A stretch of 64,000 bases of DNA from Deroplatys truncata (lineage: Eukaryota; Arthropoda; Insecta; Mantodea; Mantidae). This document shows, piece after piece, positions 2,047 through 63,790 of this stretch. The translations under genes were made by a program, and so were the position numbers. Below the pieces are notes generated by a model that saw nothing but the letters and a program-made list of their open reading frames with translations, made no database searches and was not told where the DNA came from. How positions within the stretch are numbered: position 1 is the stretch's first letter; each line of letters begins with the position of its first letter. Location of the stretch: assembly GCA_030765065.1 (NCBI GenBank), contig CM060977.1:91591795-91655794 (forward strand), given 5' to 3'.

Positions 2047-2086
2047 ACAGTATACGTTTGTGTTTAGCAGCTAAATGATTAACGAA

Positions 2087-3049
2087 AAATCTGATGTGTT
2101 ACGGTCACATGACTTTCTCTACTCTTGCACAAACTATTTTTATAAACTCTTATTCTCCATCTATTTCATATTAATCGAGATAAACATTTGCAGATACGAT
2201 CTTTAAACATGCAAAGAGAATTACATTTTACACATAGCGACCAGTTCTAAAAATATTTGAGTATCGCTTAAAGCGTAGTATGTTCCCCTTGTTTTGTAAT
2301 TACAAGGACAATATAGAAATGCAGTAGCCTTTAAGCATAGACATATGTCTTAATAGCTGGTTGCTATGTGCAGCACCATTCACTTTGCCACAGATTAATA
2401 CTCTTTGCATATCCAAGACAAAAAAAAATGAATAAGGAATTCCCATTTGAGAAAATAAGTATTGAAAAATTTAACGGAATAACATGCAATATTTCTTAAA
2501 TGGTTCACTGAATAAAAATAATGTATATGACATAAATTGTGTATTTTAAGGCGATCTAAATTTTTTGTGTAGTAAAATTTTGTCTATCTCTTATGGTTTA
2601 CCAGTTATGCAAAAGTTGTTCACAATGAAGAATACTTTTGGAGACATTCCCAAAAAATTCAAAATATAAATTTTATTTGTCATGAAAGTATCTTAAACAT
2701 ATGATACTTTAATCAAATCGTTAGAGCCATTTTTGAGCAAATTAAAATTTTCGAAAAAATTACCATGTGAAGGGTAATCTGGGATAGGGGGATTTTTTTG
2801 AAAACCTTCGTGTCGCATCTCTGGAAGATACTGAACGTAAATACCAAGTTTGGTGTTTATCCGACTGTTCTTTTCTGAGTTATGCTGTTCACAGACGCAT
2901 ACGGACACACGCCGACATGTTTCCAAAAATGCTTTTTTTTGGATTCAGGGGGTCTCAAAACATATATTTCCGGTGAAATCTCGGTATCGAATTTTTGGGT
3001 GGAAACAATACTTCCCCTACTTACTATACGTAGTAGAGAAAGTAAAAAA
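2087..3049 (+). mobile_element. W1 element, near full length
   Basis: Reference copy for W1. The left end reads AAAAATCTGATGTGTTAC, then CACATGACTTTCTCTAC. The right end reads TAGTAGAGAAAGTAAAAAAG. The ends share an inverted ACTTTCTCTAC core. Internal blocks in order: ATTAATCGAGATAAACATTTGCAG, a block with TTTTAATCAAATCGTTAGAGCC, GTGTCGCATCTCTGGAAGA, a short CA-rich stretch (about 2893-2910), and GAAATCTCGGTATCGAATTT. Just inside the right end CTTCCCCTAC can pair with GTAGTAGAGAAAG, a small hairpin. No transposase frame is visible, so I read it as non-autonomous. I cannot see a convincing target duplication because A/T runs flank both ends. Confidence 0.8.
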
Positions 3050-11990: not shown

Positions 11991-12280
11991 TTAAATTGAC
12001 CCTAATTTTAGGTTCTCATTTAAAAAACATAAATTCACCCTAAAATAACCATCATAACGTCTTTCAAAGAATTTACTTTCCCCCATAACATCAAGCAACT
12101 TTCTTAAAGGCATTTCTTTTTGCAACGCTTAATTTTGGAGATATTGTATAGTCTCAACTTAAATGGTCCACCCTGTACATAATTTGCAGTTTCTCATTTC
12201 ATTAAGCAGCGGATTTCTTTCTCCATGGGAAGTTTGTGATGTTTTTATACGCAAAAAAATAAAAACAGAGCGATATATAC

Positions 12281-13137
12281 AAATCTAATGGTTGCACTCA
12301 CATTACTTTCTCTACTGTTGTATAAACTATTTTTACAAACGTTTATTCTCCATCTACTTCATGTTAATTGAGATAAACATTTGCAGAAACTATCTTATTG
12401 CTAATTTTCTTGTAAGTGCAAGGGAAATATGGTAAGCTTTAAGCGATAGTCAAATCTTTTAAGAGCTCGTTATTATGTGGAGCATGCCATTCTCTTTGAA
12501 TGTCCAGGACATAAAAAAAGAATAATGAATTCCCATTTGAGAAAAAGTGTAAATGTTGGAAAATTAAAACAATTTAAAGAATATCTTGGAAATGGTTCAC
12601 TGGACAAAACAATTATATGATATAAATTGTGTGTTTTAACGAGATACACATATTTTGTGTAGTAACATTTTGTCTATCTCTTACGGTTTACCAGTTATAC
12701 GAAAGTCATTCAGAATGAAGATGACTTTTGGGAACATTCATAGAAAATTCAAGATATCCATTTCATCTGCCATGAAAATATCTTAAACATATGATATTTT
12801 AATTAAAACGGTTATTCTATTTTTGAGAAAATAAAACATTTCGAAAAATGTTCCATGTAAAGGCCAGTCTGGGATGGGGGATTTTCTTCAAAATCTACGT
12901 GTCGTATCCTTGGAAGACACTAAACTCAAATACCAAGTTTGGTTTTTATCCGGCTTTCCGTTTTTGAGTAATGTTGCTCACAGACAGACAGATAGACAGA
13001 AAAACAGACACGCACACGGACATGTTTCCAAAAATGCTTTATTTGGATTCAGGGCACCTCAAAACATATATTTCCGGTGAAATCTCGGTAACAAATTTTT
13101 GGGTGGAATACAATCTTATCCTAGAGAAAGTAAAGAT
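12281..13137 (+). mobile_element. W1 element, near full length
   Basis: Starts AAATCTAATGGTTGCACTCAC, then ATTACTTTCTCTAC, and ends CTAGAGAAAGTAAAG. All internal W1 blocks are present in order, including GTGTCGTATCCTTGGAAGA (12899-12917) and a CAGACAGACAGATAGACAG tract near 12980. About 860 bp. It belongs to the subtype with CTCTTGTACAAACTATTTTT-like sequence after the left end. Confidence 0.78.
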
Positions 13138-13189
13138 GACAATGGGCAGGGATAACAGTAAGAGCATTTAACCAATATTATTATTGTTT

Positions 13190-16634: not shown

Positions 16635-17758
16635 ATTTTTACTTTCTCTACTACGTATAGTAAGGGAAATATTGTATTCCACCAACAAATTCGATACCGA
16701 GATTTCACCGGAAATACACGTTTTGAGGTCCACTGAATAAAAAAAAGCATTTTTACTTTCTGTACTATATACCGGTAGTAAGTAAAGCAAATACTACATT
16801 CCACCCAAAAAGTCAATAAGGAGATTTCACCGAAATACATGTTTTGCGGTCCCCTAAACCCCCCAAAAACATTTTTACTTTCTCTACTACATATCAGTAG
16901 TAAGTAGGGAAAATACTACATTCCACCCAAAAATCGATACCGAGGTTTCACCGAAAATACATGTTGTGAGGCCCCTGAATGCAAAAAAAGGTTTTTAGAA
17001 AACGGTTCGCATGTGTGTCTATGTGTGTGTATGCGTGTGTCTGTAAATAACATAGTTTAAAAACGAGAATTCGGATAAACACCAAACTTAGAATTTAGGT
17101 TCAGTACCATCCAAAGATGCGACACGAAGATTTTTAAGAAAATCCTCCACCCCAAAATACTCTTTACATGGAGCATTTTTCGAAATTTTTTATTTTCTAA
17201 AAGTGAATGGTTCTATTTTGGTTAAATACCATATATTAAAAATATGTACATGACAACAAAAAATGTATATCTTGAATTTTATGGGAATAGCCTGCGAAGT
17301 CCTCTTCATTTGTGAACAATTTTGTGTAACCCTGTATAGGTGGTAAACGATAAGCGATATATACAGAAAATGTAGATCTCTTTAATGTACAATTTATTTC
17401 CAGTAATTCTTTTTTGTGGCATAAGCCATTTCGATGATATCCATTATTAATGGTTCTAATTGTTCATTACTTAGTCATTCCCTTAAAGTTCTGTTAACAT
17501 TCAGCTGTTTCTCGCGATGTCATGGAAACGGTATGGAATTTTAAGACCAGCATATAGCGTCCAGTTCTTAAACATTTGACTATCGCTGGCTGTTCCCTTT
17601 GTGTCAATAAGGAAATGTGTAATGTAGCTATTTCTGCAAAGGTTTATCTCGATTAAAATGAAGTAGTAGTAAGCTATGCTTTAGTAAGAATAGTTTGGAT
17701 ACCACCATTAAGCGATAGAGGGTAAAGAAAGTCATGTGAATGTAACATAAGATTTTTT
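16635..17758 (-). mobile_element. W1 element with triplicated right end
   Basis: Right terminal module occurs three times in tandem, beginning at about 16636, 16751 and 16872 (period 115-121 bp). Each repeats TTTTTACTTTCT(C/G)TACTA, the CATTCCACC block, GAGATTTCACCG and ACATGTTTTG-like sequence. The unit then continues through a GT-rich stretch (about 17010-17045), AAATACCATATATTAA and on to the left end GTAAAGAAAGTCATGTGAAT (about 17722-17741). Full otherwise. Confidence 0.8.
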
Positions 17759-17917
17759 AACTACTCTTGACTTTTCAATTTGGGTTATTGAGCTTTCCAT
17801 TGTTGAAAGTGCTCTGAGCATAGTCTGTTGTGGGTTATGTTCCTCTCTCATGATTTATACTTGTTTATCCACGTGGATCATCTGAAAGATAGCAAAAGCA
17901 AATAGCAGTTCAGGACT

Positions 17918-23846: not shown

Positions 23847-23952
23847 TATTAAAGTTTGCAGGCTTTCTAGAGAAAATCAAAGATTGACAAGAAGTCAATG
23901 TAGCAGGGAACTTATTCGTACGTTTGAAAACTTTGTAGGCCAAAATTCTCCG

Positions 23953-24810
23953 ATTTTTTACCTTCTCTACCAAGTACATAATAGGTAGAGCCGGTAGAGA
24001 AGGTTTTGCGTTCCACCAAAAAATTCGATACCGAGATTTCACCGAAAATACATGTTTTGAGGCCCTGTGAATAAATAAAAGATACTATTAGAAAAACGTT
24101 CGCGCGCGCGCGTGTGACTGTGGACAGCATAACTCAAAAACGAAAAGTTGGATAACTACCAAACATGATATTTCTGTTCAGTACGTTCCAAACATACGAC
24201 ATAAAGATTTTCAATAACATCACCCTATTCTAACTACACTTTACATGGAAAAATGTTGCAAAGTTTTGATTTTCTAAAAATGGATGTAATTATTTTGATT
24301 AAAATGACATATGTTAAACATATTAACATAACAAATAAAATATATGCGTTGAATTTTCTGGAAATAACCTGTGAAGTCTTCTTCATTTATAAGGAATTTT
24401 GTATAATCTTTGGTAACTGGTAAAGATTACCCAATAGACGAAAACGTACTACACAAAAAATGTGATCATTTTAAAATACACAATTTATTTCAAATAGTTA
24501 TTTTTGTGGCATCAGCCATTTCGGAGATATCGGTTAATAATGGTTCGAATCGTTCAATACTTTGTCATTCTTTTCAGAGTCCTTTCGATATTCACTTGTT
24601 TCTCGCGATTGCACACAAAGGACATGAAAGTTTAAGGTCAGCACACAACTTCTAGTTTCTAAACATTTGACTTTTGCTACTCCTTTTATATCTATAACGA
24701 AATGTGTAATGTAGCTATTTCCGGAAAATTTTTCTCGACTACAATTAAGTAGATAGGAAAATGAACTTTCGGAAGGATAATTTATATACGTATAAATAAG
24801 GGGTAGATGG
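23953..24810 (-). mobile_element. W1 element, near full length, left end decayed
   Basis: Begins ATTTTTTACCTTCTCTACC and runs through GATACCGAGATTTCACCG, a CGCGCGCGCGTGTG tract in place of the usual GT run (about 24092-24116), GTGGACAGCATAACTCAAAA, TTTTGTGGCATCAGCCATTT and AACGAAATGTGTAATGTAGC. The final GTAGAGAAAGTCATG is degraded to GGGGTAGATGG. It belongs to the subtype with the CCATTTC-GAGATATC block. Confidence 0.75.
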
Positions 24811-32803: not shown

Positions 32804-32986
32804 GTTAAAAATAATACATCATCTTTAAACTGACTTTCCATACGTAACAGCAACATACATTTTCCCATGGTTAATACGTTTAGGACAACGAGATCGTTAA
32901 GCGCTAAATCTAAGAAGTGAAAATGATATCTAACGGAGGAAAGAATTAACGAAATGGCTACATTTATTTGTGGGAAACCCTAAAAG

Positions 32987-33800
32987 AAAAATCTATGATA
33001 CATTCACATGACTTTCTCTACCCTTTATCTTTATTAGTGGGTATACAAATTATTCTTACTAAAGCTTGCAGATATAGCTACATTACACATTTCATTATAG
33101 ATACAAAGAAAACAGCGAGTCAAATGCTTAAGAACTGGATATACTGACCTTAAAATTCCGTACTGTTTCCATGCAATTGAAGAGAAACAACTGAAAATCG
33201 ACGGGACTTAAAAAGAATGAGAAGTGTTGAACAATTCGAACATTTATATCTCAGAAACGGCTTATGCCCAAAAGATTATTTGAAATAAATTGTGTGTTTT
33301 AAAGAGATCTACATTTTTTGTGTGGTATGTTTTCATCTATCGCTTAATGTTTACCAGTTACACAAGATTATAGAAAATGTGTCCGAATAAAGTAGAATTC
33401 ACAGGCTATTCCCACAAAATTCAAGATATACATTTTATTTGTTATGTAAATATCTTTAATAGATGTTATTTTAATCAAAATCGTTAGAGCCAGTTTTTAG
33501 AAAATCAAAAATTTCCAATAATGTTCCGTGTAAAGTTTAGTTTGGGTTGGGAAATTTTCTTGAAAATCTTCATGTCGTATCTTTGGAGGATACTGAACCC
33601 AAATGCCAAGTTTGGTATTTATCCGACTTTTCGTTTTTGAGTTATGCTATTCACAGACACACACAATCACCTTTTTCTAAAATTGCTTTTATTGGAATCA
33701 GGGGGCTTCAAAACATGTAATTACAGTGAAATCTCAGTATGGAATTTTTGGGAGGAATGCAATACCTACTCCACCTATGTACGCAGTAGAGAAAGGAAAT
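32987..33800 (+). mobile_element. W1 element, near full length
   Basis: AAAAATCTATGATACATTCAC left, GCAGTAGAGAAAGGAAAT right. It is the second W1 subtype: after the left end CCTTTATCTTTATTAGTGGG and TATACAAATTATTCTTAC, then CATTTCATTATAGATACAAAG. Carries ACACACACAATCACC rather than a long CA run. Confidence 0.8.
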
Positions 33801-34312
33801 AACATTTATAGGAACAATCCCCACACCATAGACAAACTTGAGGACAATATAGAAACAGAAATTATGAACATAACGTAAGAAGAACTTATGCGTGTGAATG
33901 GAAATTTCATCCGACGATGCCAGGGATGTCTTCACCACAGTTGGACACTTCCAACACCACTGGTACCAAGGTTAGTATTTATTATAACGCATGTTACTAT
34001 CACTCGTGGATAAGTAACGCGGCAATTACGGAACGAAAAGAGCCCAGTGTAAAAGAGAGTGAGGATTAAAGCATAGGCGCGATCAGTGGCCTCACCATAA
34101 AACGATCGCGCTGTAGATATTCAACAGGGAGATGAACACGAGCAACATACCCCTATCTAACCGCATCGAAGTCTTAGGTTTATTGTATGGTTTCCTCCCT
34201 GTTTCATCACCTACTTACACTCTAATAAGTCTCAGGTGTCTATAGATTAGGTTTCTACTAAATAGAATCTCATTTGGATCAACGGTTCCAAATTGATTGC
34301 ATATAGTTTTGT
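33801..34312. other. No recognised feature
   Basis: Nothing identified; the minus frame overlapping its left edge has no recognisable motif. Confidence 0.45.
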
Positions 34313-38354: not shown

Positions 38355-39243
38355 ATTTTTTACTTCCTCTACCACCACATGGTAGGTAGAGAAGGTAATG
38401 CATTCCACCCAAAAATTCAATACTGAGATTTCACCGGAAATACATGTTTTGAGGCCCCTGAATACAAATGAAGCATTTTTGGAAACATGCGTTTGTGTCT
38501 GTATCTGTACGTCTCTGTGTCTGTGAACAGCATAACTCAAAAGCAAAAAGTACGATAAATACGAAACGTAGTATTTGGCTTCAGTACCTTTCAAGGATGC
38601 CACACCAAGATTTTCAAGAAAACCTCCTACACTATCATTTGCATGCAAGATTTTGCGAAAATATGAACTTTTCTAAAAAAAACAGCTCTAACAATTTTGA
38701 TTAAAATATCATATATTAAGGATATTTACATTATAAATAATATATAATATATCTTAAATTTTCTGAGAATAGCCTTTGAAGTCCTCTTCATTCGGAAGGA
38801 ATTTTGTATGATCTTGTTTAACTGGCAAACATTAAGCGATAGATAAAAACGTACTAAATAAAAAATGTAGATCTCTTTTAAACACACAGTTTATTTCAGA
38901 TAATTCTTTTTTGTGGCATCAGCCACTTCAGATATCCGTTACTAATGTTTTAAATTGTTCAATACTTAGCCATTATTTTGAAGTCCTGTCAACATTCAGT
39001 TGTTTCTCGCGATTCCATTGAAACAGTTATAAGGTCAGCACATAGGTGCAGTTCTTAAACATTTGTCTATCGCTGTTCCCTTTGTATCTATAACGAAATG
39101 TGTAATGTAGCTATTTATGCAAAGGTTTATTTGAATTAAAATTAAGTTGATATAAAAATAAGCTTTGGTAAGACTAGTATGTACACCCACTAATAGACGA
39201 TAGAGGGTAGAGAAAGTTATGTGAATGTATCAAATCAGAAATT
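38355..39243 (-). mobile_element. W1 element, near full length
   Basis: From ATTTTTTACTTCCTCTACC to GGGTAGAGAAAGTTATGTG (39205-39223) and the terminal AAATCAGAAATTTTT. All blocks of the second subtype are present in order. Directly followed (39241-39295) by TTTTTGGGGTGAAATACAAC ACTTCC, a piece of another W1 right end in plus orientation. Confidence 0.82.
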
Positions 39244-39295
39244 TTTGGGGTGAAATACAACACTTCCTCTGCTTCAGAAGCGTAGTCAAAAATTA

Positions 39296-41204
39296 TTAAG
39301 GGGGTTATGTCTAGGGTCCAGTTTTAAACAATGTGTATCAATCCAAATTATAAATATGAATTAATTCTGAGTTGAAATATTTAAATAAAGCGATTCTATA
39401 TTCACACATTAAGGTGCAGCAATTGGAATTAAAATTAGAATAGAACGCTTTGTGTATTCTTACGTTGCAAATGTGTTGTGAAATGAGAATGACGCTGTGA
39501 AGTATTTTGTATTACCGTTGCAGGCCATTTCATTTCACCACAAAATAAGGTTTTCTAGTTATTTCTAAACTGGGAGATATTACAATCATTTGGAAACCAC
39601 TCAAATTTAACACCAGAATGAAAACATGCCACGATGATCAACGCCATTAAAAGACGTTGCTGTGACCTTTGGCGACGTTGTTTAAGCCTAAATATAGCAC
39701 TACCAGTGATACTATTAGGAAGTATCTCATTCCTGTGAACCTAGAAATAGTATGCTATTATTTTAACAAAGCTTGTTTGCTATTAATTTCTAATTTTTTT
39801 AGCAAGGGGGTTTCAAACCGTAAAACCTGCTACGTCTCTGATCTGCTTTATGTAGGTTTGTATACATCTAAATTTGAAAACTTCTGCATAAAACCCTGAC
39901 AGTCTTCGAATAAGTGGCTGAAAATTAAAATTTAATAATAACTGATACATTAAAACCCCTGTATAAGAAGTATGTGAATGGTCTTTCACGAATACGAAAA
40001 TCAGTGAACGTTCATTGTGGAGCTTGTTAAGTCCACTCGGAAATATACCCATGTCATAGGCAGCCGGTAGCGATGACGTGATGAAGTGGTGCTAACGAAG
40101 ACTAACGAAGGAAAATCTAATATTTGTAAACCAGAATGACAATAAGGTAAACCTTATTACAGTGAGGGAGGGTGGTAACCAGAGAATCACATTATTAGCT
40201 GCGTGAAATGTGAAACTGGGAAACAGGCACACACCTAGAGGTACATCAGGCAGCCGAAGCTCACTTCCATGCAATAGCATACATGAATGTATTACACATT
40301 TGTATTTGTAGTATACATTTTACACACACCATTGTCGTCTGTCTTTAACAATATAACTGGCTTCATTTACAACCACCCTGCAGAATAGCGCTCTGGGCCG
40401 TTTTCTGTAAATTTAAACATTGAAATAATACATTTAAGGGAAAATGGAACTGCATTTTCTAACCTTTTAAATTTTAAAGCTCTCGACTTGAAAATTGGCA
40501 CACTTAATAACGAGTAAATAAAGAAATGTCTGTGTCAAAGCTCTAGCTCAGATAGTTTCTCATATAATAAAGATTTTTAATTAGCAAAAAAAAAATATTC
40601 AAATTTTCTAAACCCCCTCTACAGATTCACATTTGTCAGAGAAGTATGTTAATGACATTTTCTAATACTTTATTATAGTGAAAGATTTCATTGAAGTTTA
40701 TGTTATTACGAGTAGTTGCAGAAAAATAAATGTTTTTATGAAATTGTTGGTGTTAAAATTTTCCTCTTTTCAGTACAAAATAGAGCAAAACTGAAATGTA
40801 GGGAATACATTTCATGCGCAAAACTGAGCAAAAACACATACACAAAGGGTCCAGTCGGATTAAAAGGGAGTGAACGGGTGATTTAAACATATCACTGGGG
40901 TTTTAAAAACGCAGATTATGAAAAACGTTTGGCTAAAATGATTCACAGGTATGTGTAGAATATTTGTGAATTAATTAAAAATAGGAAATGTTGTCATTTT
41001 TACCTAAAAACTCACTCAAGTGTTCCTTAAGCGGATTTATCTGTGAAGTTTCCAAAACCCTAAGTACTTACTCTACTAAGATTTAAAAAAAATTACCATA
41101 TCTAATGTCTGGATAGAGAATTTTGCTTGCAAAGTTTTGGTGCATATAAATTAAGTCACTCCTGGATTGTGCGTTTTAAAATACAATTTTATACTATTTT
41201 ATAA
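39296..41204. other. No recognised feature
   Basis: 1.9 kb of AT-rich sequence without gene, tRNA-like box or repeat shared elsewhere in the window. Frames up to 79 codons lack motifs. This may be the largest stretch of background sequence here. Confidence 0.5.
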
Positions 41205-41936
41205 AAAAATCAGATGTGTTACATTTATATGACTTTCTCTACTCTCTATCTCTTATTAGAGAGTATACAAATTATTTTTACAAAAATTTATTTCCTTAAC
41301 TACTTTATTTTAACCGAGATAAACCGTTCCGGAATTAGCTACATTACGCATTTCATTATAAATACAAAGAGAACAGCGATAGTCAAATGTTAAGGACTGG
41401 ATGCTATATGCTAGCCTTAAAATTTCATGCTCTTTCCATGACATCGGGAGATCAACTGAAAATCTACAGGACTTTTAAAAGAATGGCTAAGCATTGAACA
41501 ATTCGAACTGTTAATAACGGTTATTTCGGAAATGGCTGATGCCACAAGTGCTTTAAGGAGTTATCTAAATTTTTTGTGTAGTTCGTTTTCGTCTATCACT
41601 CAACGTTTAACAGTTATACAAGCTTATACAAAATTCCTTCCGAATGAAGAGGACTTCAAAGGCTATTCCCCGAAAATTCAAGATATACATGTTATTTGTC
41701 ATGCAAATATCTTTAATGTATGGTATTTTAATAAAAATCGTTAGAGCTTTTTTTAGAAAATAAAACATTTCAAAAAGTGTTCCATATCAAGGACAGTTAA
41801 AGGTGGGAGAATTTTATGAAAAATCTTGGTTGCACATCTTTGGAAGGTACTGAACTGAAATACTAAGTTTGGTATTTATTCAACTTTTCGCTTTTAAGTT
41901 ATGCAGTTCACAGGCACTCACAAACACCACTCGCAC
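41205..41936 (+). mobile_element. W1 element lacking its right end
   Basis: AAAAAATCAGATGTGTTAC, ATGACTTTCTCTACTCTC and the second-subtype blocks, running to the CA-rich position (CACAAACACCACTCGC) where it abuts an inverted W1. The last ~150 bp are missing. Confidence 0.75.
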
Positions 41937-42805
41937 CTTTTTATAATTACTGTCTCTACTACGTATAGTAAGTAGGGGAAGTATTGTATTCCACCCAAAA
42001 ATTCGATACCGAGATTTCACCGGAAATATATGTTTTGAGACCCCTGAATCCAAAAAAAGCATTTTTGGAAACATGTCCGTGTGTGTCTGTCTGTCTGTGA
42101 ATAGCATACCTCAGAAACGAACAGTAGGATAAACACTAAACTTGCTATTTAGGTTCAGTATCTTCCAGAGATGCGACACGAAGGTTTTCAAGAAAATCCC
42201 CCCACCCCAGATTACCCTTTACATGGAACATTTTTCGAAAATTTTAATTTTCTCAAAAATGGCTCTAAAGATTTTGATTAAAATATCATATGTTTAAGGT
42301 ATTTTCGTGACAAATGAAACGTATATCTAAAATTTTCTGCGAATGTCACCAAAAGTATTCTTCATTGTGAACGACTTTTGCATAACTGGTAAACTATAAG
42401 AGATAGACAAAATTTTACTACACAAAAAATGTAGATCGTGTTAAAATACACAATTTATGTCATATACATTTATTTTGTTGAGTGAACCATTTCCGAGATA
42501 TTATTGCTTGTTATTTCCTTAAATTTTCCAATACTTTTTCTGAAATGGAAATTCGTTATTCATTTTTCTTTTTCTTTGTCCTGGTAATACAAAGAAATGG
42601 AATACTCCACATAGCAACCAGCTGTTAAAATATTTGACTATTGCTTAAAACCTACCAATTCTCCTTGCATCTACAAGAAAATTGGCAATAAGATTAACGT
42701 CTCGATATCTCGATTAACATGAAACATATGGAGAATAAGCGTTTGTAGAAATAGTTTGTACAAGAGTAGAGAAAGTCATGTGAGTGTAACACATCAGATT
42801 TTTTT
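41937..42805 (-). mobile_element. W1 element, full length, inverted against its neighbour
   Basis: Starts TTTTTATAATTACTGTCTCTACTACG and ends GTAGAGAAAGTCATGTGAGT followed by GTAACACATCAGA. First subtype. With 41205-41936 it forms a right-end to right-end inverted pair of about 1.6 kb; since the two are of different subtypes the pair arose by insertion rather than fold-back duplication. Confidence 0.8.
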
Positions 42806-42810
42806 TGGAG

Positions 42811-42922
42811 CGGAGTTCAGAGGGCCTGAAAAGATGTATTTCTGGTGAAATCTCGACATCCAATTTTTGGGTGGAGGACAATACTTCCCCTACTAACTAT
42901 ATGTGATAAAGGAGGTAAAAAA
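42811..42922 (+). mobile_element. W1 right-end fragment
   Basis: CAGAGGGCCTGAAAAGATG, GTGAAATCTCGACATCC, TTGGGTGGAGG and a decayed terminus GATAAAGGAGGTAAAAAAG. It directly precedes duplicated segment A. Confidence 0.65.
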
Positions 42923-44315
42923 GAAAATGGCTACTGGAGTTCAGGGCATAATTTTGTCCGGTATAAACGATGAATTTCTTTACAATATGTTTTTGAGAAC
43001 TAGAAAGCTTAACACAAATGTTGAGAAAGTCGCGAAAGGATACCGCGCTGAAGGAATTTGATGGTTATTAGGACACATGACAGGCAAATAGGTAAAATAA
43101 AATTATTATTTATAACAGTGTAACACACCTAGAATATCATCAGCAAATGCATCTAGTTTTATGATAACAGAGAAGTTTAACACTACCCAAGATAAACACA
43201 AAAAGAATGTAGCAATTGACAACTACGACGCGTAGCGATGCAAAGAGTGAGGTTAAGGTATTATCGACGAAACACATAGGACTGGTTACTTCATAACCTA
43301 CAAAAACACCGTTCAAACACAAATGTAACATAGCACAAGTATGTGCGATATTCAGTATTTGCAAGTCATGTGTAAGTTAAATGACACCACAAGCTTCGCG
43401 ATGCCGGTGATGACCAGATTAGTAGAGGCCTTCGGAGCTCTCTAGGATTAAGTTTAAATTATTGGAGAATAAATTCATAATTCGTGCGTGTTTATAATGT
43501 GGGTTTACTCCAAACAAGTGCAAAACTAAACTAACTTTTATCATGTCTGGGTACGACACAAAGCAGCGGTTGACATTAGAAACAATTTTGGTCGAATAGA
43601 GAACACGAGTAAAAGGTAATGCTCTTGATGTCATTGCTTTGATTGAGTATTTTTAGCTGTTATATTTAAGTATTATGCGAGCCGTAATGGGAATGGTACT
43701 TGATCTCGTTGCAGTGATTGAGTTATATCTTGTTAACGGTGACGTCGGTAACATTGAAGTGTAATTTTCAAAACTCAAATTAAAAACAAAAATTAAGGAA
43801 TACAATGACAGAAGCCAGGTTAACTGCGTTACCTATTTTTAGCATAGAAAACGGAAGATACCGTAAACTCGTATAATAGCAGTATAAGATACAACCTTGC
43901 ACAAAACGTAAGGATATACACTCCTGTACTCTTAGCCTATCGCAACAAGTCACACAGTCGGTGCTTGTATTTTGTATAACGTAGTTTTAAAATCATAATT
44001 TGCATCCGAACACGCCGTGTTCATTCATATTTATTTCACAGTACCGTAAGCACTTGTAATAAGAAATAATAATACTAATAGTTTAATATCAGCTGATTGT
44101 GAAAAAACATGTCAATTGCTACACAAGTTTCAGCAAAACAAAGCAGTGATTAGATATCAAGCTGACCATGTATGATTCGCAGTATAGCCAACATTAGTTT
44201 TAAACAGTTGAATAGCTATCTAAGGAATAAAACTGCATCTTAGAACTCGTCGCCGCTAGGGTATTCCAAGAATAACCATTCCAAGATTTATTCCGAGTTC
44301 CTACAGTCGACCCTA
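42923..44315 (+). repeat. Duplicated segment, copy A
   Basis: Collinear with 47275-49765 over its whole length, at about three in four to four in five identity by eye. Anchors: AAACGATGAATTTCTTTA, GACGAAACACATAG with GGTTACTTCATAA, GATGACCAGATTAGTAGAGG, GTGGGTTTACTCC, TTGTATTTTGTATAACGTAG and AACAGTTGAATAGCT. Copy A lacks both insertions present in copy B. The start codon context AAAATGGC and the phrase INDEFLYNM are kept in both, but copy A is closed by a stop after about 44 codons. Function unknown. Confidence 0.85.
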
Positions 44316-49271: not shown

Positions 49272-49980
49272 AAAAGGTGTTTTAAGGAATAAATGAGAGG
49301 TTTTGAGCATTGAAAACGAAAGATAAGATAAACTGCTATAAGTTACAACTTTGCACAAAAGGTGAGGTTATACACTCACATACTCTTACTTATCCCAACA
49401 TGTCACATCGTCTGTGCTTGTATTTTGTATAACGTAGTTGTAAAATCCTAATTTTGCATCCGAACATGCTTCTGAGCATTCATAACTATTTCACAGTACC
49501 ACAAAGAGTTCAAATAAGAAATAATAATAGTTTAGGAACAGCTGAATGTGAAAGCAATGCGAAGTTTTATACAAGTTAGTGATTACGTGTCAAGCTGGCC
49601 ATGAGCTGCATTCGCAATGTAGCCAACATTACTTTTAAATCTGCAAACAGTTGAATAGCTGTCTAAGGAATAAAATTACATCGTACAGCTTGTCGCCACA
49701 TTTATACCGTTGATAGGGTACCTATTCCAAGGTTTATTCAGAGTTCGTAAGTACAACCGGCCCTTAATGTAGAAATGGCGGATAATGTTATCATTACTGC
49801 GATGGGAGGGAAAGTAGGAAGGCTGGTTGTATTAGCGAAACCACATCCAGAGTGTGATTGCTTTTTCTTCCGCAAACGATCACTGGTCCTTCTCGGTTGA
49901 GAAGCATGTGGCTTCAATGTAGGCTCTCCAGTCAACTATGGCGTCTTTCTTGCTCTATCGCTGGGCCGGAAATCACGAAT

Positions 49981-50120
49981 AATTTTTACTTTCTCTACCG
50001 CGCACATAGTAAGTAGAAAAGGTATTACATTCCACCCACAAAATTCGATACCGAGATTTCACGGGAAATACATGTTTAGAGGCACCCTGAATCAAAAAAA
50101 AAAACGCGTTTAGAAAAAGG

Positions 50121-50173
<53 letters not shown>

Positions 50174-50858
50174 TTCTGTGAAAAGCATAGCTTAAAAACG
50201 GATAGAGCAAATTTGGTATTTAAATTAAGCAACTTCCAAAGATGCAACACGAAGATTTCCAAAAAAAAAATCCCGCAACAGAGACTACCCTTTACATGCA
50301 ACATTTTTCGAAAATTTTGTTTTTTTCAAAAATGGCTCTAACGATTTTGATTAAAATACGATATTTTAAGATATTTTAATGGAAAATGAAATGCATATCT
50401 TAAAGTTTCTGGATATGAACCAAAAAGTCTTATTCATTCTGAATGATTTTTGTATAATCGGCAAATCGTAACAGATAGACAAAATTTTATTACACAAAAA
50501 ATGTAGATCTCGTTAAAACACAATTTGTCATATACACTTTTTTGGCAAGTGAACCATTTCCGAGATATTCCTTGTTATTTTTTTTAATTTTCCATTATTT
50601 TCAAAGGGGAATTAGTTATTCGTCTTTTTTATGTCCTGGACGCACAAAGAGAATGGAATGCTCCACATAGCAACCAGCTCTTAAAAGATTTGACTATAGC
50701 TTAAAGCCTACCATATTCTCTTGCGCCTATAAGAAAATTAGCAATAAGATAATTTCTGTAAATGTTTATCTCGATTAACATGAATCAGATGGAGAATAAG
50801 CGTTTATAAAAATAGTTTGTACAAGAGTAGAGAAAGTCACGTGAGTGCAACACATCAA
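49981..50858 (-). mobile_element. W1 element, full length, array unit 1
   Basis: AATTTTTACTTTCTCTACCG to GTAGAGAAAGTCACGTGAGT GCAACACATCA. Contains the longest CA/GT run of the family (about 50126-50172). First subtype. Confidence 0.85.
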
Positions 50859-50998
50859 TTTTTACTTTCTCTACTACGTATAGTAAGTAGGGGAAGTATT
50901 GCATTCCACCCAAAAATTCGATACCGAGATTTCACCGGAAATACATGTTTTGAGACCTCCTGAATCCAAAAAAAGCATTTTTGGAAACATGTCCGTGT

Positions 50999-51035
<37 letters not shown>

Positions 51036-51506
51036 TGTGTGTCTGTGAACAGCATAACTCAAAAACGAACAGTCGGATAAACACCAAACTTGGTATTTAG
51101 GTTCAGTATCTTCCAGAGATGCGACACGAAGGTTTTCAAGAAAATCCCCCCACCCCAGACTACCCTTTACATGGAACATTTTTCGAAAATTGTAATTTTC
51201 TCAAAAATGGCTCTAACGATTTTGATGAAAATATTATATGTTTAAGATAATGTCATGAGAAATGAAATGTATATCTCGAATTTTCTGGGAATGTCTCCAA
51301 AAGTATTCTTCATTGTGAACGACTTTTGCATAACTGGTAAACCATAAGAGATAGACAAAATTTTACTACACAAAAAATGTAGATCGCGTTAAAATACACA
51401 ACTTAAGTCATATACATTTCTTTTGTTGAGTGAACCGTTTTCGAGATATTGCTTGTTATTTCCTTAAATTTTCCAATACTTTTACTTTTTCTCAAATTCG
51501 TTATTC
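50859..51506 (-). mobile_element. W1 element, array unit 2, left part missing
   Basis: Starts TTTTTACTTTCTCTACTACG and follows unit 3 almost base for base as far as CTCAAATTCGTTATTC, where it is cut and unit 3 begins. The GT run is at about 50996-51048. Confidence 0.85.
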
Positions 51507-52437
51507 TTTTTACTTTCTCTACTACGTATAGTAAGTAGGGGAAGTATTGCATTCCACCCAAAAATTCGATACCGAGATTTCACCGGAAATACATGTTTTG
51601 AGACCTCCTGAATCCAAAAAAAGAATTTTTGGAAACATGTCCGTGTGTGTGTCTGTGTGTCTGTGTGTGTGTGTGTGTCTGTGTGTGTGTGAACAGCATA
51701 ACTCAAAAACGAACAGTCGGATAAGCACCAAACTTGGTACTTAGGTTCAGTATCTTCCAGAGATGCGACACGAAGGTTTTCAAGAAAATCCCCCCACCCC
51801 AAACTACCCTTTACATGGAAGATTTTTCGAAAATTTTAATTTTCTCAAAAATGGCTCTAACGATTTTGATGAAAATATCATATGTCTAAGATAATGTCAT
51901 GGGAAATGAAATGTATATCTCGAATTTTCTGGGAATGTCTCCAAAAGTATTCTTTATTGTGAACAACTTTTGCATAACTGGTAAACCATAAGAGATACAC
52001 AAAATGTTACTACACAAAAAGTGTAGATCGCGTTAAAATACACAACTTATGTCATATACATTTCTTTTGTTGAGTGAACCGTTTTGGAGATATTGCTTGT
52101 TATTTCCTTAAATTTTCCAATACTTATACTTTTTCTCAAATTCGTTATTCATTTTTTTTGTCTTGGATATGCAAAGAGTTATAATCTGTGGCAAAGGGAA
52201 TGGTGCTGCACCTAGCAACCAGCTATTAACAGATATGTATGTGCTTAAAGGCTACTGTTTTTCTATATTGCCCTTGTAAATATATATTCCCCTTACATCT
52301 ACAAGAAAATTAGCAATAAGATAGGGTCTGCAGATGTTTATCTCGATTAACATGAACTAGATGGAGAATAAGCGTTTGTATAAATAGTTTGTACAAGAGT
52401 AGAGAAAGTCATGTGAGTGTAACACATCAGATTTTTT
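51507..52437 (-). mobile_element. W1 element, full length, array unit 3
   Basis: Complete: TTTTTACTTTCTCTACTACG to GTAGAGAAAGTCATGTGAGT then GTAACACATCAGATTTTT. A frame of about 100 codons (51802-51482) spans its right half, as in unit 2 (51179-50874) and in 57608-58042. Confidence 0.88.
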
Positions 52438-52667
52438 TTTCTCCTGGACATGCAAACAGAATGGAAATGCGCCACATAGCAAACAGCGTTAAAATATTTG
52501 ACTATCGCTCAAAGCCTACCATATTCCCCTTGCATCTACAAGAAAATTAGCAATAAGATTGACATCTCGATATCTCGATTAACATGAAGCATATGGAGAA
52601 TAAGCGTTTGTAAAAATAGGTTTACAAGAGTAGGGAAAGTCATGTGAGTGTAACACATCAGATTTTT
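52438..52667 (-). mobile_element. W1 fragment, array unit 4, left end only
   Basis: CTCCTGGACATGCAAACAG through GTAGGGAAAGTCATGTGAGT and ACACATCAGATTTTT. Only the left quarter of the unit. Confidence 0.75.
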
Positions 52668-52925
52668 GTGTGTGTGTTTTCTGTACCACGCACATAGAGA
52701 TAGAGAAGGTATTGCATTCCACCCAAAAACTCTATACACGTTTCAATGGAAATACATGTTTCAGGACCTCCTGAATAAAATAAATTTAGAAAAAGGTCTG
52801 TGTGTTTGTCTATGAACAGCATAACTAAAAAACGTTAAGTCGGATAAACACCAAACTTGGTATTTAGGTTCAGCATCTTCCAAAGATGCGACACGAAGAT
52901 TTTCAAGACAGTATCTCCATATGTC

Positions 52926-53736
52926 GTCCTCCGTGGTCTAGGGATACCATGCTAGCCTCTAGTTCCCGAGGTCGTGGCTTCAAATCCGGCGAAGGACGAT
53001 GGATTTTTTCGGGCGTAAGAATCCTTAGCATGGCTTCCTTCGGAAGGGAAGTAAAGACGGTGGTTCCGTGTCGTAGATTTACGGTACGTGAAAGAACCTC
53101 AAGCCTGATAAAGATGCATCTGAACAAAATTTTCGGTCTTTCACGCCCAATATAGAATGCGACGCTAAGAACCATAACAGTCAAAGAGCGTCCATAAATA
53201 AAACTCAATTTAATATTGTTACATGTTGGGATGAAAGCCGAAAAGGTTACCAGAAAATGATTAATTCAGGTCAGCCGAACTCGCACATGGGGCACAACTC
53301 ACTGGTAGCAAAAAGACCGGGACCCTGGTGTGTAATTTTAAGGGAAGGCGTGGGTTTTTATATTACATTGAAAGATTAAATAACACGATTACCTGGGATT
53401 TATTCACAAAAACGTTTGGCTTCTCTACATAGTTAACAAAGGACACATGATGAAGGCAGATGCCACAGACCGTAGACCGGCCACACACAACTGGTTCCAA
53501 CGACCACTTACTCTCGAATGAAGCTATCTTGCCCCCACCAATCGCGTCTAGCCAAAGCCAGATAGGGCTGGCGTCATACTAGATATTTTCAAACAGATCC
53601 CTCCCTTTGGCTGGTCCGCGCCAAAAGGAAAGACCGTCAAGCCAAAATATAATTAAGGGGATCCAATATTGCTACGTCTGGTAGCAACAACATAGCACAA
53701 CAGTGCATCTGGTAATAACAATATTAATAATACGCC
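52926..53736 (+). mobile_element. SINE-1 copy 3, inside W1 and itself interrupted
   Basis: CTCCGTGGTCTAGGGATACC (A-box region), B-box-like GCTTCAAATCC, CTTAGCATGGCTTCCTTCG, CCGTGTCGTAGATTTACGG, TTTCACGCCCAATATAGAAT. Flanked by ACAGTATCTCCATA (about 52909-52922) and ACAATATCTCCATA (about 53733-53746), a 14-bp target duplication with one change. Its tail CAATTTAAT|AT is split by the LTR at 53217-53720. Confidence 0.88.
53217..53720 (+). repeat. Solo LTR (LTR-C) inside SINE-1
   Basis: 504 bp from TGTTACATGTTGGG to GGTAATAACA: TG...CA ends with a short inverted repeat (TGTTA / TAACA). ATAT is duplicated on both sides (53213-53216, 53721-53724), a 4-bp target duplication typical of integrase-inserted LTR elements. 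No internal region, so recombination between two LTRs has removed it. Orientation uncertain. Confidence 0.78.
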
Positions 53737-54359
53737 ACAATATCTCCATACCGAACTATCCTTTATATGTACAGTTTTTGGAAATCTTTGATTTTATAAC
53801 TGGCTCTAACATTTTGATTAAAATAACATATATTAAAGATGTTTACATGACAAATAAAATGTATATCTTAAATTTTTTGGAAATAGCCGTTGAAGTCCTG
53901 TTCATTTGGAACGCATTTGTATACTGTTGTATAACTGGTAATCGCTAAGCGAGAGACGAAAACGTACTACACATGTAACAGCTCTTTAAAAACACACAGT
54001 TTACTTCAAATAACTTTTTTGTGGCTTAAGCCATCTCCGAGATATCTGTTATTAATGGTTCGAATTGTTCGATAGTTTGTCATTCTTTTTAAGTCCTGTT
54101 GACAGTCAGTTGTTTCTCGCAATTGCATGGAAACAGTATGGAATTTTAAGGCCAGCATATAGCGTCCAGTTCTTAAACATTTGACTATCGCTATTCTCTT
54201 TTTATCTATAAAAATGCGTAATGTAGCTATTTCTTCAAAGATTTATCTGGATTATAATGGAGTAGATGAAAACGTAAGTTTTCATAAGAATAATTTGCAT
54301 ACCCACTAATAAACGACAGAGGGTAGAAAAATTCATGAGAATGTAACATCTGATTTTTT

Positions 54360-55668
54360 TTTAAATTGGAGACAGATGCTTTATGGAATCAGCCAGTCTA
54401 AGGGTGAGTAGCAGACGGTTTTTAAATCAGTATTTTGTGCTTCTCGGTTAAATAAATTCCGATGGAATAGTTGAACAAAGTTATAATGTTCGTTTTTCTT
54501 GTCACGGATATTTCAAATTTAATTTTGTTTGGGGTGAGAAGTTGCTGTTGATAGATCTCGACATTCCGTTTTCATCGATCATACAGCGCTGCGAATAGTC
54601 AGTGGTACCTCGGTCGGGTCGACCAGTGCACGTCAGGCGGTACCGTTCTCATCAGCCGCAGCCTGTTCACAGCGAGACTTAACGTAACCTATCATCAGTT
54701 TTTGTATCACTTCAGATGTCGTGCATGTTAAGGGAACCTAGAAGCGATTTTCTTTGAAAAAGTCAATTATTTTTTACTTTTATTTTTGGGAATTTCCTCT
54801 TTTAAATGGTATATACTACACGATTGTTAACCATGTCAAACTTTGAACAGGAATAAGGCTATGTGTCAGACATGCATTGATGTTTAAACTTGAAACCACA
54901 TTTTCTAAAAGTTTATTTTTTAATTATAAACTTCTTTTCCAAATTGTTATTGAACCTAATTTGATGAAATTTTCAGGACTTGTTTATATGAATATTGTAT
55001 ATATACTGAAACAATTACTGGGAGAAAATTATTTCTGAGTAACTAATGATCCTTAATAAAATCAGAAAAGGTATTCCACATAAAGCAAGATTCGATACTA
55101 TAAAACAAGATGAAGTAAAAGTCATAAAAATTGATAAATTTCCTATAAAAGGAATATCTTGTAAATTTTTTACATTATGAATTACTATTTCCGCTTGTTT
55201 CAGCGTGAACACAAGGAATGTATGAATGTACTATTAAAACATTGGTTATGTAGCTTTAGCAGTTTCAGAGACAAAGAAAATATTTAAGCACATAATTTCA
55301 AATCCATGAGACAAGTAATTCAAGGTTGCCTTAATAGATAATGCTACCTACTGACCAGTAATGGGATTCCTATTCGTTAGTCTTATGTAGAAGTAATAAT
55401 ATTCATAGCTGCTACCTGCATGTCATAATTTGTATTTTAGTTGCAGAAAAAGTCTGAAGTGTTACATATGACCTTTTCCACCCATTAACGTTGTGATCCA
55501 ATGTGGATCACAAAGCATAACCTAGCAATTCAGGTAATCCTTCTCTAGACCGGCTTGGTACCTTCATTGATATTTTTATGTCTTGAGTATCAGACATAAA
55601 TCTTATGGCCACACCATATTGCTAGAGTCGCCTGAGAAAAGTAGAATTGAGTTTTATTTATAAACGCT
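54360..55668. other. No recognised gene; small hairpin
   Basis: Unassigned AT-rich sequence. Near 55493-55513 TGTGATCCAATGTGGATCACA forms a short hairpin (8-bp arms). The 54595-54680 part is GC-richer without recognisable motif. Confidence 0.5.
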
Positions 55669-56520: not shown

Positions 56521-57052
56521 CGTTATCAAACTGGTGCACCATCGCGGCATCAATTAACTGCTTCAAGTTTCACCACATCAAAGTTGCCGTCTGGTGGAGC
56601 GACAAAGGATGCTTTTAAAGTAGGTTCCGTTGTTCAATAAAATAAGAACTGCTGAATATTTGGGCTAACTAACTTTTTATTCTAATCTATATAATTTAAG
56701 CTTTCTTTCCAGACAGTTTTCACAATCAATTAAATTCTAATTCTGGTGTAGAAAAATTCTACTGGCTCCTCCTAATAGAAGTTCAACACCAGTCCATAAA
56801 AAATCGTAATTTTTAATATGCATTTTTTCTATGAGTAAGATTCCAGAAATTGCGTTATTGGCATCATTGGTTTCAGGGGTTGGGGATTGAAACTAGTTCA
56901 GATCTTTTATCACAGAGTGCCTGAAAGTAAACAATTATGAATCTGCAAGTTAATGTGATGCTAGCCAATACAAATGACTCATTATTTATGTTCTTCTGGA
57001 AGCTTTCGTACATGTCCCCAAATGTTTCTTAAGAGATTATCACAATTTTACA
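56521..57052. other. No recognised feature
   Basis: Possibly LTR-A leader in the first 100 bp, otherwise AT-rich spacer. Confidence 0.45.
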
Positions 57053-57910
57053 GAAAAATCTGATGTGTTGCATCACATAACTTTCTCTACTCTTGTAAAA
57101 AATATTTTTACAAACGATTATTCTCCATCTACTTAATGTTAATGAGATAAAGTTTGCAGGAACTGTCTTATTGCTAATTTTTTTGTAGGTGCAAGGGGAA
57201 TGTGGTAAGCTTTAAGCGATAGTCAAATCTTTTAAGAGCTGGTTGCTATGTGGAGCATTCCATTCTCTTTGCATGTCCAGGACATAAAACTAATAACGAA
57301 TTCCCATTTTAGAAAAAGTATAACTATAGGAAACTTCAGTCAAATAACAAGGAATGTCTCGGAAATGGTTCACCCAAAAAAAGTATATGACAAATTGTGA
57401 GTTTTAATGAGATCTATAATTTTTGTGTAGTAAAACTTTGTCTATCTCTTACGGTTTAACAGTTATGTGAAAGTCATTCAGAATGAAGGAGACTTTTGGG
57501 GACATTCCCAGAAAATTATGATAAACATCTCATTTGCCATGAAAATATCCTAAACATACAACATTTAAATCAAAATCGTTAGAGCCATTTTTGAGAAAAT
57601 AAAAAAATTGAAAAATGTTCCGTGTAAAGGGCAATCTGGGATGGAGGATTTTCTTGGAAATTATTGTATCGCATCCTTGGATGATACTAAAGTCGAATAC
57701 CAAGTTTGGTGTTTATCCGAGTTTTCGTTTTTGAGTTACGCTCTTCACACACTGGCAGACAAAAACACACACGCGGACATATTTCCAAAATGCTTTATTT
57801 GGATTCAGGACACCCCAAAACACGTATTTCCGGTGAAATCCCGGTGTCTAATTTTTGGGCGGAATACAATACTTCTCTTACTTACTATACATAGTATAGA
57901 AAATAAAAAT
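57053..57910 (+). mobile_element. W1 element, full length
   Basis: AAAAATCTGATGTGTTGCATC to ACATAGTATAGAAAATAAAA. First subtype; ACACACTGGCAGACAAAAAC replaces a pure CA run. A 144-codon frame (57608-58042) runs out of its right half into flanking DNA; the last third (TPETATRFLDVLAAELRDEA) is outside W1 and unrecognised. Confidence 0.8.
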
Positions 57911-58206
57911 TTAACTCCGGAAACAGCTACACGTTTCCTAGATGTACTGGCGGCGGAACTCCGTGACGAGGCTCTTAAAAACGTATGCTATACTAACACA
58001 AATGTTCGAAAAATATTTATAACTGGTAAAAACGTAGTGTAAAAAATAAACTATCGAAAAATATTTAGTAGGTCGTATTTTATTGCAAAACCGACCTTAC
58101 TTTTAAAATACTCCTCGTAGATTTGTAACTTAGTGCATTGTTATACGGGCGTGCGAAGTGCATTATTGCAGAATCGAGGAATAGTTTGAAAAGACGAGAC
58201 GAAGAC
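57911..58206. other. No recognised feature, one open stretch
   Basis: 57911-58040 is the non-W1 end of the frame named in the W1 entry to the left (LAAELRDEALKNVCYTNTNV). Composition is ordinary; no domain recognised. Confidence 0.35.
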
Positions 58207-58532: not shown

Positions 58533-58871
58533 CACAATGGCTTGGTAGCCTCTATAATTAAAGAGGTTTTGAGCCAGTTGTTTGATGGTTGATGCCGACT
58601 CAAAGTGGTTTGTTTGAAAATAATAATAGAGACGATAATAGAGATTCAGCATCTCAAGATGAATTTGAAGTCTAAGACATGGATTATGAAAACATAAATA
58701 TTGAAGCTGCGTGGAAAATTTGGTGCGCGTAATTGATTCATAAAAAATCTAAATGAGATATGATATCTCCATATTTAATTACAGTTAATTAACTTTCAAT
58801 AATGCTCGAAATACCATAATTTATTCTGCTCGAAGTGTAATTTCACTGTAATATATTACTACTGATTATTC
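58533..58871. other. No recognised feature
   Basis: AT-rich spacer. Confidence 0.5.
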
Positions 58872-59748
58872 AAAATCTGATGTGATACATCCACATGACT
58901 TTCTCTACCCTCTATCTTTATTAGTGGGTATACACACTATTCTTACTAAAGTTTACTTCTCTATCTACTGTATTTTAATCCAAATAAACCTTTGCAGAAA
59001 TAGCGATATTACACATTTTCTTATAGATACAAAGAGAACAACAATAGTCAAATGTTTAAGAACTGGATACTACATATAAGCTAACCTTAAGATTCCATAC
59101 TGCTTCCATGCAATCGCGAGAAACAACTGAATGTTGACAGGACGATAAAAGAATGACCAAGTAATAAACAATTCGAACAATTAATAACGGATATCTGATA
59201 AATGATTTATGCCAGAAAAAAATTATTTGAAATAAATTGTGTGTTTTAAAGATATCTACTTTTTTGTGTAGTACGTTTTCGTCTATCCCTTAACGTTTAC
59301 CAGTTATGCAAGATTATACAAATTCCTTCGGAATGAAGGCTTCATAGGTTATTCCCAGAAAATTTAAGATATACATTTCATTTCTCATATAAATATCTTT
59401 AATATATGGTATTTTAATAAAAATCGTTAAGAGCCATTGTTTAGAAAATAAAAAAAATTGAAAAATATTCTGCGTGAAGCGTAGCTTGGGGTGGGGTATT
59501 TTCTTGAAAATCCTCGTGTCTCATCTTTGGAAGGTAATGAACTTAAATACCAGGTTTGTTATTTATACGACTTTTCGTATTTGAGTTATGGAGATCACGA
59601 CACACACGCGCGGACATTTTTCCAAAAATGGTTTTTTATTCAGGGGACCTCAAAACACGCATTTCGGTGATATATCGATGTAGCCTTTTTGGGTGGAACG
59701 CAAATACTTTCTCTGTGCACTAGGTACGTGGTAGCGAAAGTAAAAATG
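58872..59748 (+). mobile_element. W1 element, full length
   Basis: AAATCTGATGTGATACATCC to GTGGTAGCGAAAGTAAAAAT. Second subtype (CTCTATCTTTATTAGTGGG). The CA tract is short (CACACACGCGCGGAC). Confidence 0.82.
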
Positions 59749-60144
59749 TAGACTTCCTGCCGCAAGTTTATATTGTATGTCATACCGCTACAAAACTTAT
59801 ATTGGTAGATATGGGTTTCCTTGGAAACGAATTCATGTGTTGGAATTCTAAACTTCTTTCTGTGTAAATATCATTGGGAAAATATAGAAAACATAGGATC
59901 GTGCAAAAAATAATTTTCATTCAACACCAGAGTTTTACACTAAACAGTTTCGAAAGCTGAGGAAAATGCCACGTCACCTCGAACCTATTGTACATGCAAA
60001 CGGGCTGAAACAGAAAAAGAAGATAATAGGGTGCAGAGATTGGTTCATCATAAATTCTTTCGTAGTCTTTAAATAAACAAATGCAAATGTATCGAAACTG
60101 CATTTGGTGAGGCTGAAATTTAAATACCTAGATAGATATATCAT
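59749..60144. other. No recognised feature
   Basis: Spacer between W1 copies, nothing identified. Confidence 0.5.
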
Positions 60145-63359: not shown

Positions 63360-63537
63360 GGTATCTATCCGATTTTTCGTTTTTGAAAAGAGACACGCAC
63401 GCATGCACACAACACCTTTTTCTAAACATGTTGTTTATTCGGGAGTCCTCAAAACACATGTTTACAGTAAAATCTTGGCATCGAATTTTTGGGTGGAATG
63501 CATACCTTCTCTATGTACATGGTAGAGAAAGTAAAAA

Positions 63538-63780: not shown

Positions 63781-63790
63781 ATTCAAACTA

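Follow-up and report, generated by a model that had tools for sequence, protein, structure and literature searches.

Several described systems of mobile elements come close to the repeat family analyzed here, and they are summarized from the available parts of the papers cited. The DINE-1/INE-1 elements of Drosophila carry subterminal inverted repeats (subTIRs), a second partial inverted repeat (IR) next to the 5' one, a GTCY-type microsatellite and a stem-loop after the 3' repeat, lack an open reading frame (ORF), insert at TT without duplication and reach very high copy numbers (PMC2374699). In the mite Metaseiulus, non-coding HINEs share their ends with partner Helentrons that encode Rep, helicase and endonuclease, insertion occurs in T-runs, no modification of the target site was seen, and at least 11 identical subTIR bases serve as the published criterion for a family (PMC4067079). 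The Cg_HINE/Pearl elements of bivalves show a 5' subTIR, a complementary IR, a GTCY-like microsatellite, a 3' subTIR and a palindrome (PMC7492417), and the FoHeli elements of Fusarium (Helitron2) possess asymmetric terminal inverted repeats, insert into themselves and can display several short 5' termini together with a single 3' terminus (PMC5148889). Each of these features was encountered again in a repeat family of the mantis Deroplatys truncata, here called W1.

W1 was studied in a window of 64,000 nt, which is the whole stretch of DNA that was analyzed, and at further loci of the same genome. A search profile built from 10 near-full copies gave 42 matches on both strands of the window that cover 16,754 of the 64,000 bases (26.2%), and no match was obtained in the reversed window used as a control. 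These values are in close agreement with the initial annotation, in which an abundant, apparently coding-free repeat in both orientations had been estimated at about a quarter of the window. With hardly any doubt, W1 is a HINE, that is a non-autonomous Helentron of the non-canonical rolling-circle kind, and it is DINE-1-like; this reading is based on its anatomy, its insertion into T-runs and the presence of similar Helentrons in the same genome. Relative to the open literature, W1 appears to be a new family of the known HINE kind. No report of it was found by title or start of the abstract among the papers listed, four 13-letter strings from the W1 ends retrieved from paper texts only literature unrelated by title, and no literature joining Helentron with cockroach was found.

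The copy singled out by the initial annotation occupies positions 2085..3049 on the minus strand (5' end at 3049, 3' end at 2085, T-runs included) and is a complete HINE of variant A2. When it is read on the minus strand, a T-run at the 5' end precedes the subTIR ACTTTCTCTAC(T), with which a second inverted repeat is nested, and the GT/GTCY microsatellite; towards the 3' end follow the other subterminal repeat, a short hairpin, CAGA and a further T-run. These are class features taken from the available parts of PMC4067079, PMC2374699 and PMC7492417. Its 5' terminal T-run (T6 on the minus strand) lies at 3044..3049 and is followed at 3010..3043 by the 5' subTIR ACTTTCTCTACT and its partner IR AGTAGGGGAAGT, which could form a 12-bp hairpin. 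Then come the GT/GTCY-type microsatellite, the length of which varies between copies (2890..2919), an internal inverted duplication of about 180 nt that marks variant A2 (2207..2396, limits approximate), the 3' subterminal inverted repeat GTAGAGAAAGT (2112..2122), the 3' hairpin ATGTG-7-CACAT (2094..2110) and the 3' terminal T-run (2085..2089), all on the minus strand. The genome consensus, obtained from 26 genome copies, has a length of 967 nt; it starts with TTTTT, ACTTTCTCTACT and the partner AGTAGGGGAAGT, contains the GT/GTCY tract at about 140-180, and ends with the inverted AGTAGAGAAAGT, the palindrome ATGTG-7-CACAT after the 3' subTIR, CAGA and TTTTT.

It had been noticed before that the ends of W1, although otherwise unlike, share an inverted core. 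In the 26-copy consensus 12 identical bases are common to both ends, in keeping with the subTIR length of 11-15 bp that characterizes HINEs, and in the 11 window copies with both ends the core matched at 11 of 11 bases in three, at 10 in six, at 9 in one and at 7 in one, so that 9 of the 11 copies match at 10 or 11 bases. The second inverted repeat beside the 5' subTIR is provided by the 12-nt partner AGTAGGGGAAGT, and the resulting 5' hairpin folds better than shuffled sequences, with z = -2.4 for the consensus of lineage A and z = -4.1 for that of lineage B. With regard to covariation, the arms of the 5' IR pair within copies no better than between copies (20 copies; 556 of 5,000 shuffles reach the observed value). 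At the 3' end, a stem of at least 5 bp was present in 9 of 21 window ends as compared to 10% in shuffles; taken alone, the 3' hairpin shows no folding advantage over shuffled sequences (z = -0.22). The CA/GT tract of variable length described previously corresponds to a GT-rich tract, which had a length of 15-57 nt in the 11 of 14 copies where it could be measured; the search pattern misfitted in the other three copies, and at least one GTCY unit occurred in 9 of the 11.

The likeness to DINE-1 described here is one of layout. In the available part of PMC2374699, the subTIR of D. melanogaster DINE-1 is ATACCCGTTACTC, as compared to ACTTTCTCTACT in W1, and the hairpin stem measures 7-11 bp, as compared to 5 bp in W1; the central tandem-repeat array of DINE-1 (PMC2374699) was not seen in the aligned W1 copies. 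Similarly, the central satellite-like tandem arrays that the available text of PMC7492417 describes for Cg_HINE/Pearl were not seen in W1. In contrast to the mite families, which lack a DINE-1-type IR according to the available part of PMC4067079, W1 possesses one.

No coding capacity was found in W1. Its longest stop-free stretch amounts to 81 aa in the A consensus and 97 aa in the B consensus, and three ORFs overlapping W1 gave no Pfam match above cut-off. Nor was an autonomous partner found inside the window itself, where Pfam gave nothing above cut-off for 16 ORFs of at least 120 aa and four Rep or Walker-A motif patterns were absent from ORFs longer than 45 aa. Scans of the window with Rfam (gathering threshold) and for tRNAs were empty, and exact scans for W1 patterns gave no match in viral contigs (three patterns) or genome contigs (one pattern).

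At the 5' side, at least two Ts lie directly outside the subTIR in 19 of 21 window ends (11% of positions by chance) and at least five Ts in 15 of 21 (0.6% by chance), and 20 of 21 window 3' ends have a T-run of at least three within 40 nt of the subTIR. For the genome, 27 loci from among the best matches outside the window and locus L001 made up 28 loci, from which L011 and L018 were dropped for want of a proper end pair, leaving 26 copies. T-runs accompany these copies on the 5' side in 25 of 26 cases and on the 3' side in all 26, and beyond the Ts no more than 0-2 nt are common to the two flanks, a duplication of the Ts alone being possible. W1 integrates within T-runs, where no target-site duplication is formed beyond the Ts, as compared to insertion between TNAT and T in the case of FoHeli1/2 (PMC5148889, available part). 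Five of the 26 genome copies interrupt W1 sequence that is otherwise continuous, at different T-runs, and five directly follow a W1 3' end; among the 11 window copies, those at 41938 and 51503 interrupt W1 sequence of this kind. Nested copies therefore supply empty sites for W1 insertion, and these place the true limits of W1 within the T-runs, a few bases away from the ends proposed initially. When the joined flanks of the 11 window copies were searched, spanning matches were obtained for four, of which only c41938 and c51503 were counted; c49976 was dropped as it matches itself through its neighbour and c38355 as it gave only short matches to W1 end sequence.

An older reading of DINE-1, according to which W1 would be a cut-and-paste MITE with a TT target-site duplication, would account for inverted repeats near both ends, and the flanking T-runs could hide a 2-bp TT duplication. 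However, in the consensus the inverted repeats of W1 lie 5 nt from one end and 22-27 nt from the other, and neither elements in which several 5' ends are combined with a single 3' end nor a Rep/helicase partner that shares the ends, both described below, fit such a mechanism; we consider this explanation very improbable. With its lack of coding sequence, the absence of a duplication beyond the Ts and the 3' hairpin of its consensus, W1 also resembles a canonical Helitron (Helitron1) or a derivative thereof, which would be characterized by a 5'-TC end, a 3'-CTRR end and insertion between A and T. Such ends and such an insertion site were not found for W1. The lack of CTRR remarked on in the initial annotation applies to both ends, and the Helitron-like TC start mentioned there is a coincidence, as that end is the complement of the W1 3' end (...CAGA plus T-run). 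Moreover, subTIRs are located near both ends, W1 sits in T-runs, and the partner with the same ends has a C-terminus resembling an endonuclease, the feature by which Helentrons are distinguished in the available part of PMC5148889; we consider a canonical Helitron a very improbable identity for W1 as well. TC...CTRR ends are not expected in W1 because it is of the non-canonical Helentron/HINE kind; the earlier remark on the missing CTRR was sound, but the class had been left unassigned, although W1 is a rolling-circle element. It was also correct that W1 could not be assigned to hAT, Tc1 or a satellite. In our analysis hAT and Tc1 were rejected only through the absence of a duplication, and a satellite was rejected on the basis of ends, target and partner.

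Besides the copy at 2085..3049, complete copies of lineage A are located at 12273..13143 and 57048..57917, both on the minus strand, and complete copies of lineage B at 32982..33802 (-), 38355..39244 (+) and 58867..59753 (-). A near-complete lineage B copy lies at 23952..24802 (+), a 5'-truncated one at 61403..62082 (-), a lineage A copy with both ends and an internal deletion at 60142..60897 (-), and fragments with a head-to-tail junction of a 3' end and a 5' end (...CAGTTTTTACTTTCTCTAC) at 63360..63862 (-). At 41938..42809 (+), a complete A copy is found within an A-run (a T-run on the opposite strand) that belongs to a B copy at 41200..42927 (-), and the B copy is thereby split into the parts 42927-42799 and 41942-41200; the join at 41938, the 5' end of the inserted copy, is unclean, with a few irregular bases and a short host stretch absent. 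A further complete A copy (49976..50863, +) is connected head-to-tail through a shared TTTTT with a copy of variant A3 (50858..52672, +), and the latter is split at an internal T-run into the halves 50858-51510 and 52432-52672 by another complete A copy (51503..52441, +), for which uninterrupted paralogues represent the empty site. In both window nestings of complete copies the inner copy belongs to lineage A, the host being A once and B once.

The W1 copy at 52676..54363 (+) is split by an unrelated insert of about 820 bp (about 52920-53738), which shows a direct repeat of about 10 bp (TATCTCCATA) at its edges. This insert is probably another mobile repeat, because the peptide KLSFIYGRSLT... 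is common to ORFs at three sites, namely 52903-53265 within the insert, 46582-46947 and 62946-63434. An ORF fragment at 3894-4286 (+) is transposase-like; it has 193 relatives, some of which carry PF13358 or PF16087 (DUF4817), and termites are the only organisms named among the 120 listed, which would point to an insect host, perhaps close to termites and cockroaches. Tandem repeats outside W1 matches occur at 48759-48939 (55-bp unit, 3.3 copies) and at 15761-15878 (36-bp unit, 3.3 copies).

The two sub-lineages recognized by the initial annotation are real. Aligned rows of lineage A (8) are 78-93% alike and those of lineage B (8) 74-81%; between A and B the similarity drops to 0.57-0.58 in alignment columns 600-800, which correspond to the "left third" named there but read from the other strand, and the ends are common to both. 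The 26 genome copies show 94.6-97.4% identity to their own consensus, and the mean identity between copies is 92.8%, a pattern that, judged from these identities, is star-like. Variant A3 carries CAGCGTTAA in its 3' half. Of the 11 A3 cases seen, seven were broken at the internal T-run (L064, L065, L071, L073, L074, L061/L062 and window 52432-52672, as opposed to the uninterrupted cases L013, L095 and twice L061/L062); such breaks were more frequent than in other A copies, in a sampling biased to Helentron flanks.

For the abundance of W1 in the genome, 60 windows at round coordinates fixed beforehand (20 of 2 kb and 40 of 0.5 kb) were sampled on contigs C1-C16. W1 accounted for 13,542 of the 60,000 sampled bases, or 22.6% (bootstrap 13.9-31.7%), and the reversed control gave one W1 match. 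Because the two samples differ (26.0% versus 15.7%), "about a fifth" is a fair statement of the W1 share of the sampled sequence, which is much for one rolling-circle family. According to the available parts of the respective papers, all Helitrons together reach 17-22% in the assemblies of morabine grasshoppers (PMC7754599), 7-20% in gomphocerine repeatomes (PMC7486953), 4.23% in the silkworm (PMC3789558), 6% in vespertilionid bats and 6.62% in Heliconius (PMC4067079). On contig C16 (707 Mb), W1 was present in only one of six sampled windows (453 of 6,000 bases), as compared to 24% elsewhere, which is too few to judge; possibly, C16 is a W1-poor chromosome, perhaps the X.

Elsewhere in the genome, Helentrons with a Rep/helicase protein were found. 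With 150 of 291 candidates scored, PF14214 (Helitron_like_N) gave 152 genomic matches, of which at least 15 lie in open frames of 2,300-2,543 aa. The first Helentron copy (L061/L062) has a frame of 2,441 aa, for which Pfam reported PF04843 (5e-10), PF20209 (5e-17), PF14214 (7.5e-29), PF05970 (9.5e-29) and PF21530. When the last 225 aa were searched alone, the endonuclease PF14529 narrowly passed (1.8e-6; 28.2 bits, cut-off 27.4) and PF03372 remained below its cut-off; PF14529 was not reported when the 1,431-aa piece was searched in full. Among the 120 listed of 334 relatives, those with Helitron_like_N and PIF1 come from a spider (52% identity), flies, psyllids, a flea, molluscs and rotifers, and some close ones, e.g. 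P0121, also show PF14529. As judged from these profiles, the combination of Rep/helicase and a weakly scoring endonuclease is the Helentron layout, and it differs from that of the fungal proteins in the available part of PMC5148889, which are without an endonuclease.

In 12 of 12 further Helentron copies, which are 95-99.5% identical to the first one over the 0.6 kb compared, the match to the first copy stops right after GTAGAGAAAGTTATGTGAATGTAACACATCAGA plus four Ts. A W1-type 3' end is present in all 13 Helentron copies examined, the first one included, and the 5' end of W1 in all five copies seen at the 5' side; in the first copy, about 850 nt of the 5' side show 92% identity to the A2 consensus. 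At the 3' end, the last 33 nt of Helentron and W1 are 94-97% identical and the last 60 nt 63%. On these comparisons, W1 and the Helentron share both ends and would be members of the same family by their subTIR, and they would be separate subfamilies by the 80% rule (PMC4067079, available part) because their last 60 nt are only 63% alike. The Helentrons are the likely autonomous partner of W1. Their 5' W1 part may have come from W1 and not the other way round, or W1 may be a deletion form of the Helentron, and inverted W1 pieces behind the shared 5' part favour some exchange. Another group of Helitron_like_N loci (L029-L048), most of them with stop codons, probably represents other Helitron lineages; W1-type end motifs were encountered near 1 of these 20 (L038) in the 3.3-3.5 kb examined for each.

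The 3' flank of the first Helentron copy is not W1; altogether, 8 of 13 Helentron 3' flanks are W1, seven of them at one internal T-run (model position about 648) and one at another (L063-L074). When T-runs with minimum lengths of 5 to 9 bases were counted in 124 kb, those at this W1 position made up only 3.9-9.4%. All five Helentrons seen at the upstream side are preceded by one or more outer W1 5' halves that break off at the same T-run, and L077 has two such halves and the end of a third. The outer 5' halves are 92-99% alike, and identity cannot tell which of them moved with the Helentron because a window copy of the same variant is itself 94-98% identical to them. Serial W1 3' halves were observed downstream of Helentrons, and the same was seen in the preset-coordinate window L095 and in L022. 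Both sides were seen for five Helentron copies. Three of these are nested, with a W1 half on either side; in the other two (L078/L068 and L050) an outer W1 5' half is present and a W1 3' half is absent, their outer halves being 99.2% alike.

By analogy with Helentron biology, the Helentron protein would nick at the 5' end, the helicase would peel off a strand during re-copying, the 3' subterminal repeat and the hairpin would mark the stop of copying, and the released copy would be joined into a T-run. New W1 copies and Helentrons would often land in or beside old W1 copies, because W1 contains a T-run at about model position 648 and is bounded by T-runs at its ends, and such landing would generate nested stacks and head-to-tail pairs. 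A start at an outer 5' end with a stop at the first 3' end would give elements in which several 5' ends precede a single 3' end. The two copies L078/L068 and L050 fit copying from the outer 5' end to the first 3' end, as expected. In the window, the composite copy at 16641..17759 (+) has three 5' ends (16641, 16755 and 16877), joined at internal T-runs, and a single 3' end (17759); FoHeli elements of Fusarium with several 5' ends and one 3' end have been explained in the same way by their authors (PMC5148889, available part).

Alternatively, nested stacks and elements with several 5' ends could stem mainly from unequal recombination, slippage at T-runs or copying of whole blocks, and not from repeated self-insertion. 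The array at 16641-16877 is a tandem repeat with a period of 122 that could grow by exchange between TTTTT tracts; however, its units are only 79-85% alike, and two of them clearly, the third barely, are closer to dispersed copies than to each other. Copying of whole blocks predicts an outer W1 5' half in front of the Helentron, as was seen in all five cases accessible at the 5' side. In contrast, the W1 3' halves behind the seven Helentrons are 75-97% alike, no closer mutually than to uninterrupted copies, and the Helentron ends before them are 97-99.8% alike; owing to this difference, the seven look like insertions in different W1 copies and not like one nested block copied whole. In addition, complete W1 copies sit in W1 at several different T-runs. 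We regard recombination, slippage or block copying as an unlikely main cause. As a tentative model, which we would not yet call probable, W1 and the Helentron may constitute a self-seeding expansion system, in which the T-runs of W1 would be preferred targets and outer 5' ends would move composites, with the family at about a fifth of the 4.3-Gb genome and many very similar open-frame Helentrons remaining.

What is more than routine about W1 is its abundance as a single family, the closely similar Helentrons alongside it and its layered self-insertion. The question of its class, left open by the initial annotation, is answered by a HINE with a likely autonomous partner. Very similar Helentrons (95-99.5% where compared) beside very many W1 copies are unusually good material, and the W1/Helentron pair is a natural substrate for the study of Helentron cutting, of stopping, of the choice of T-runs and of the role of the endonuclease.
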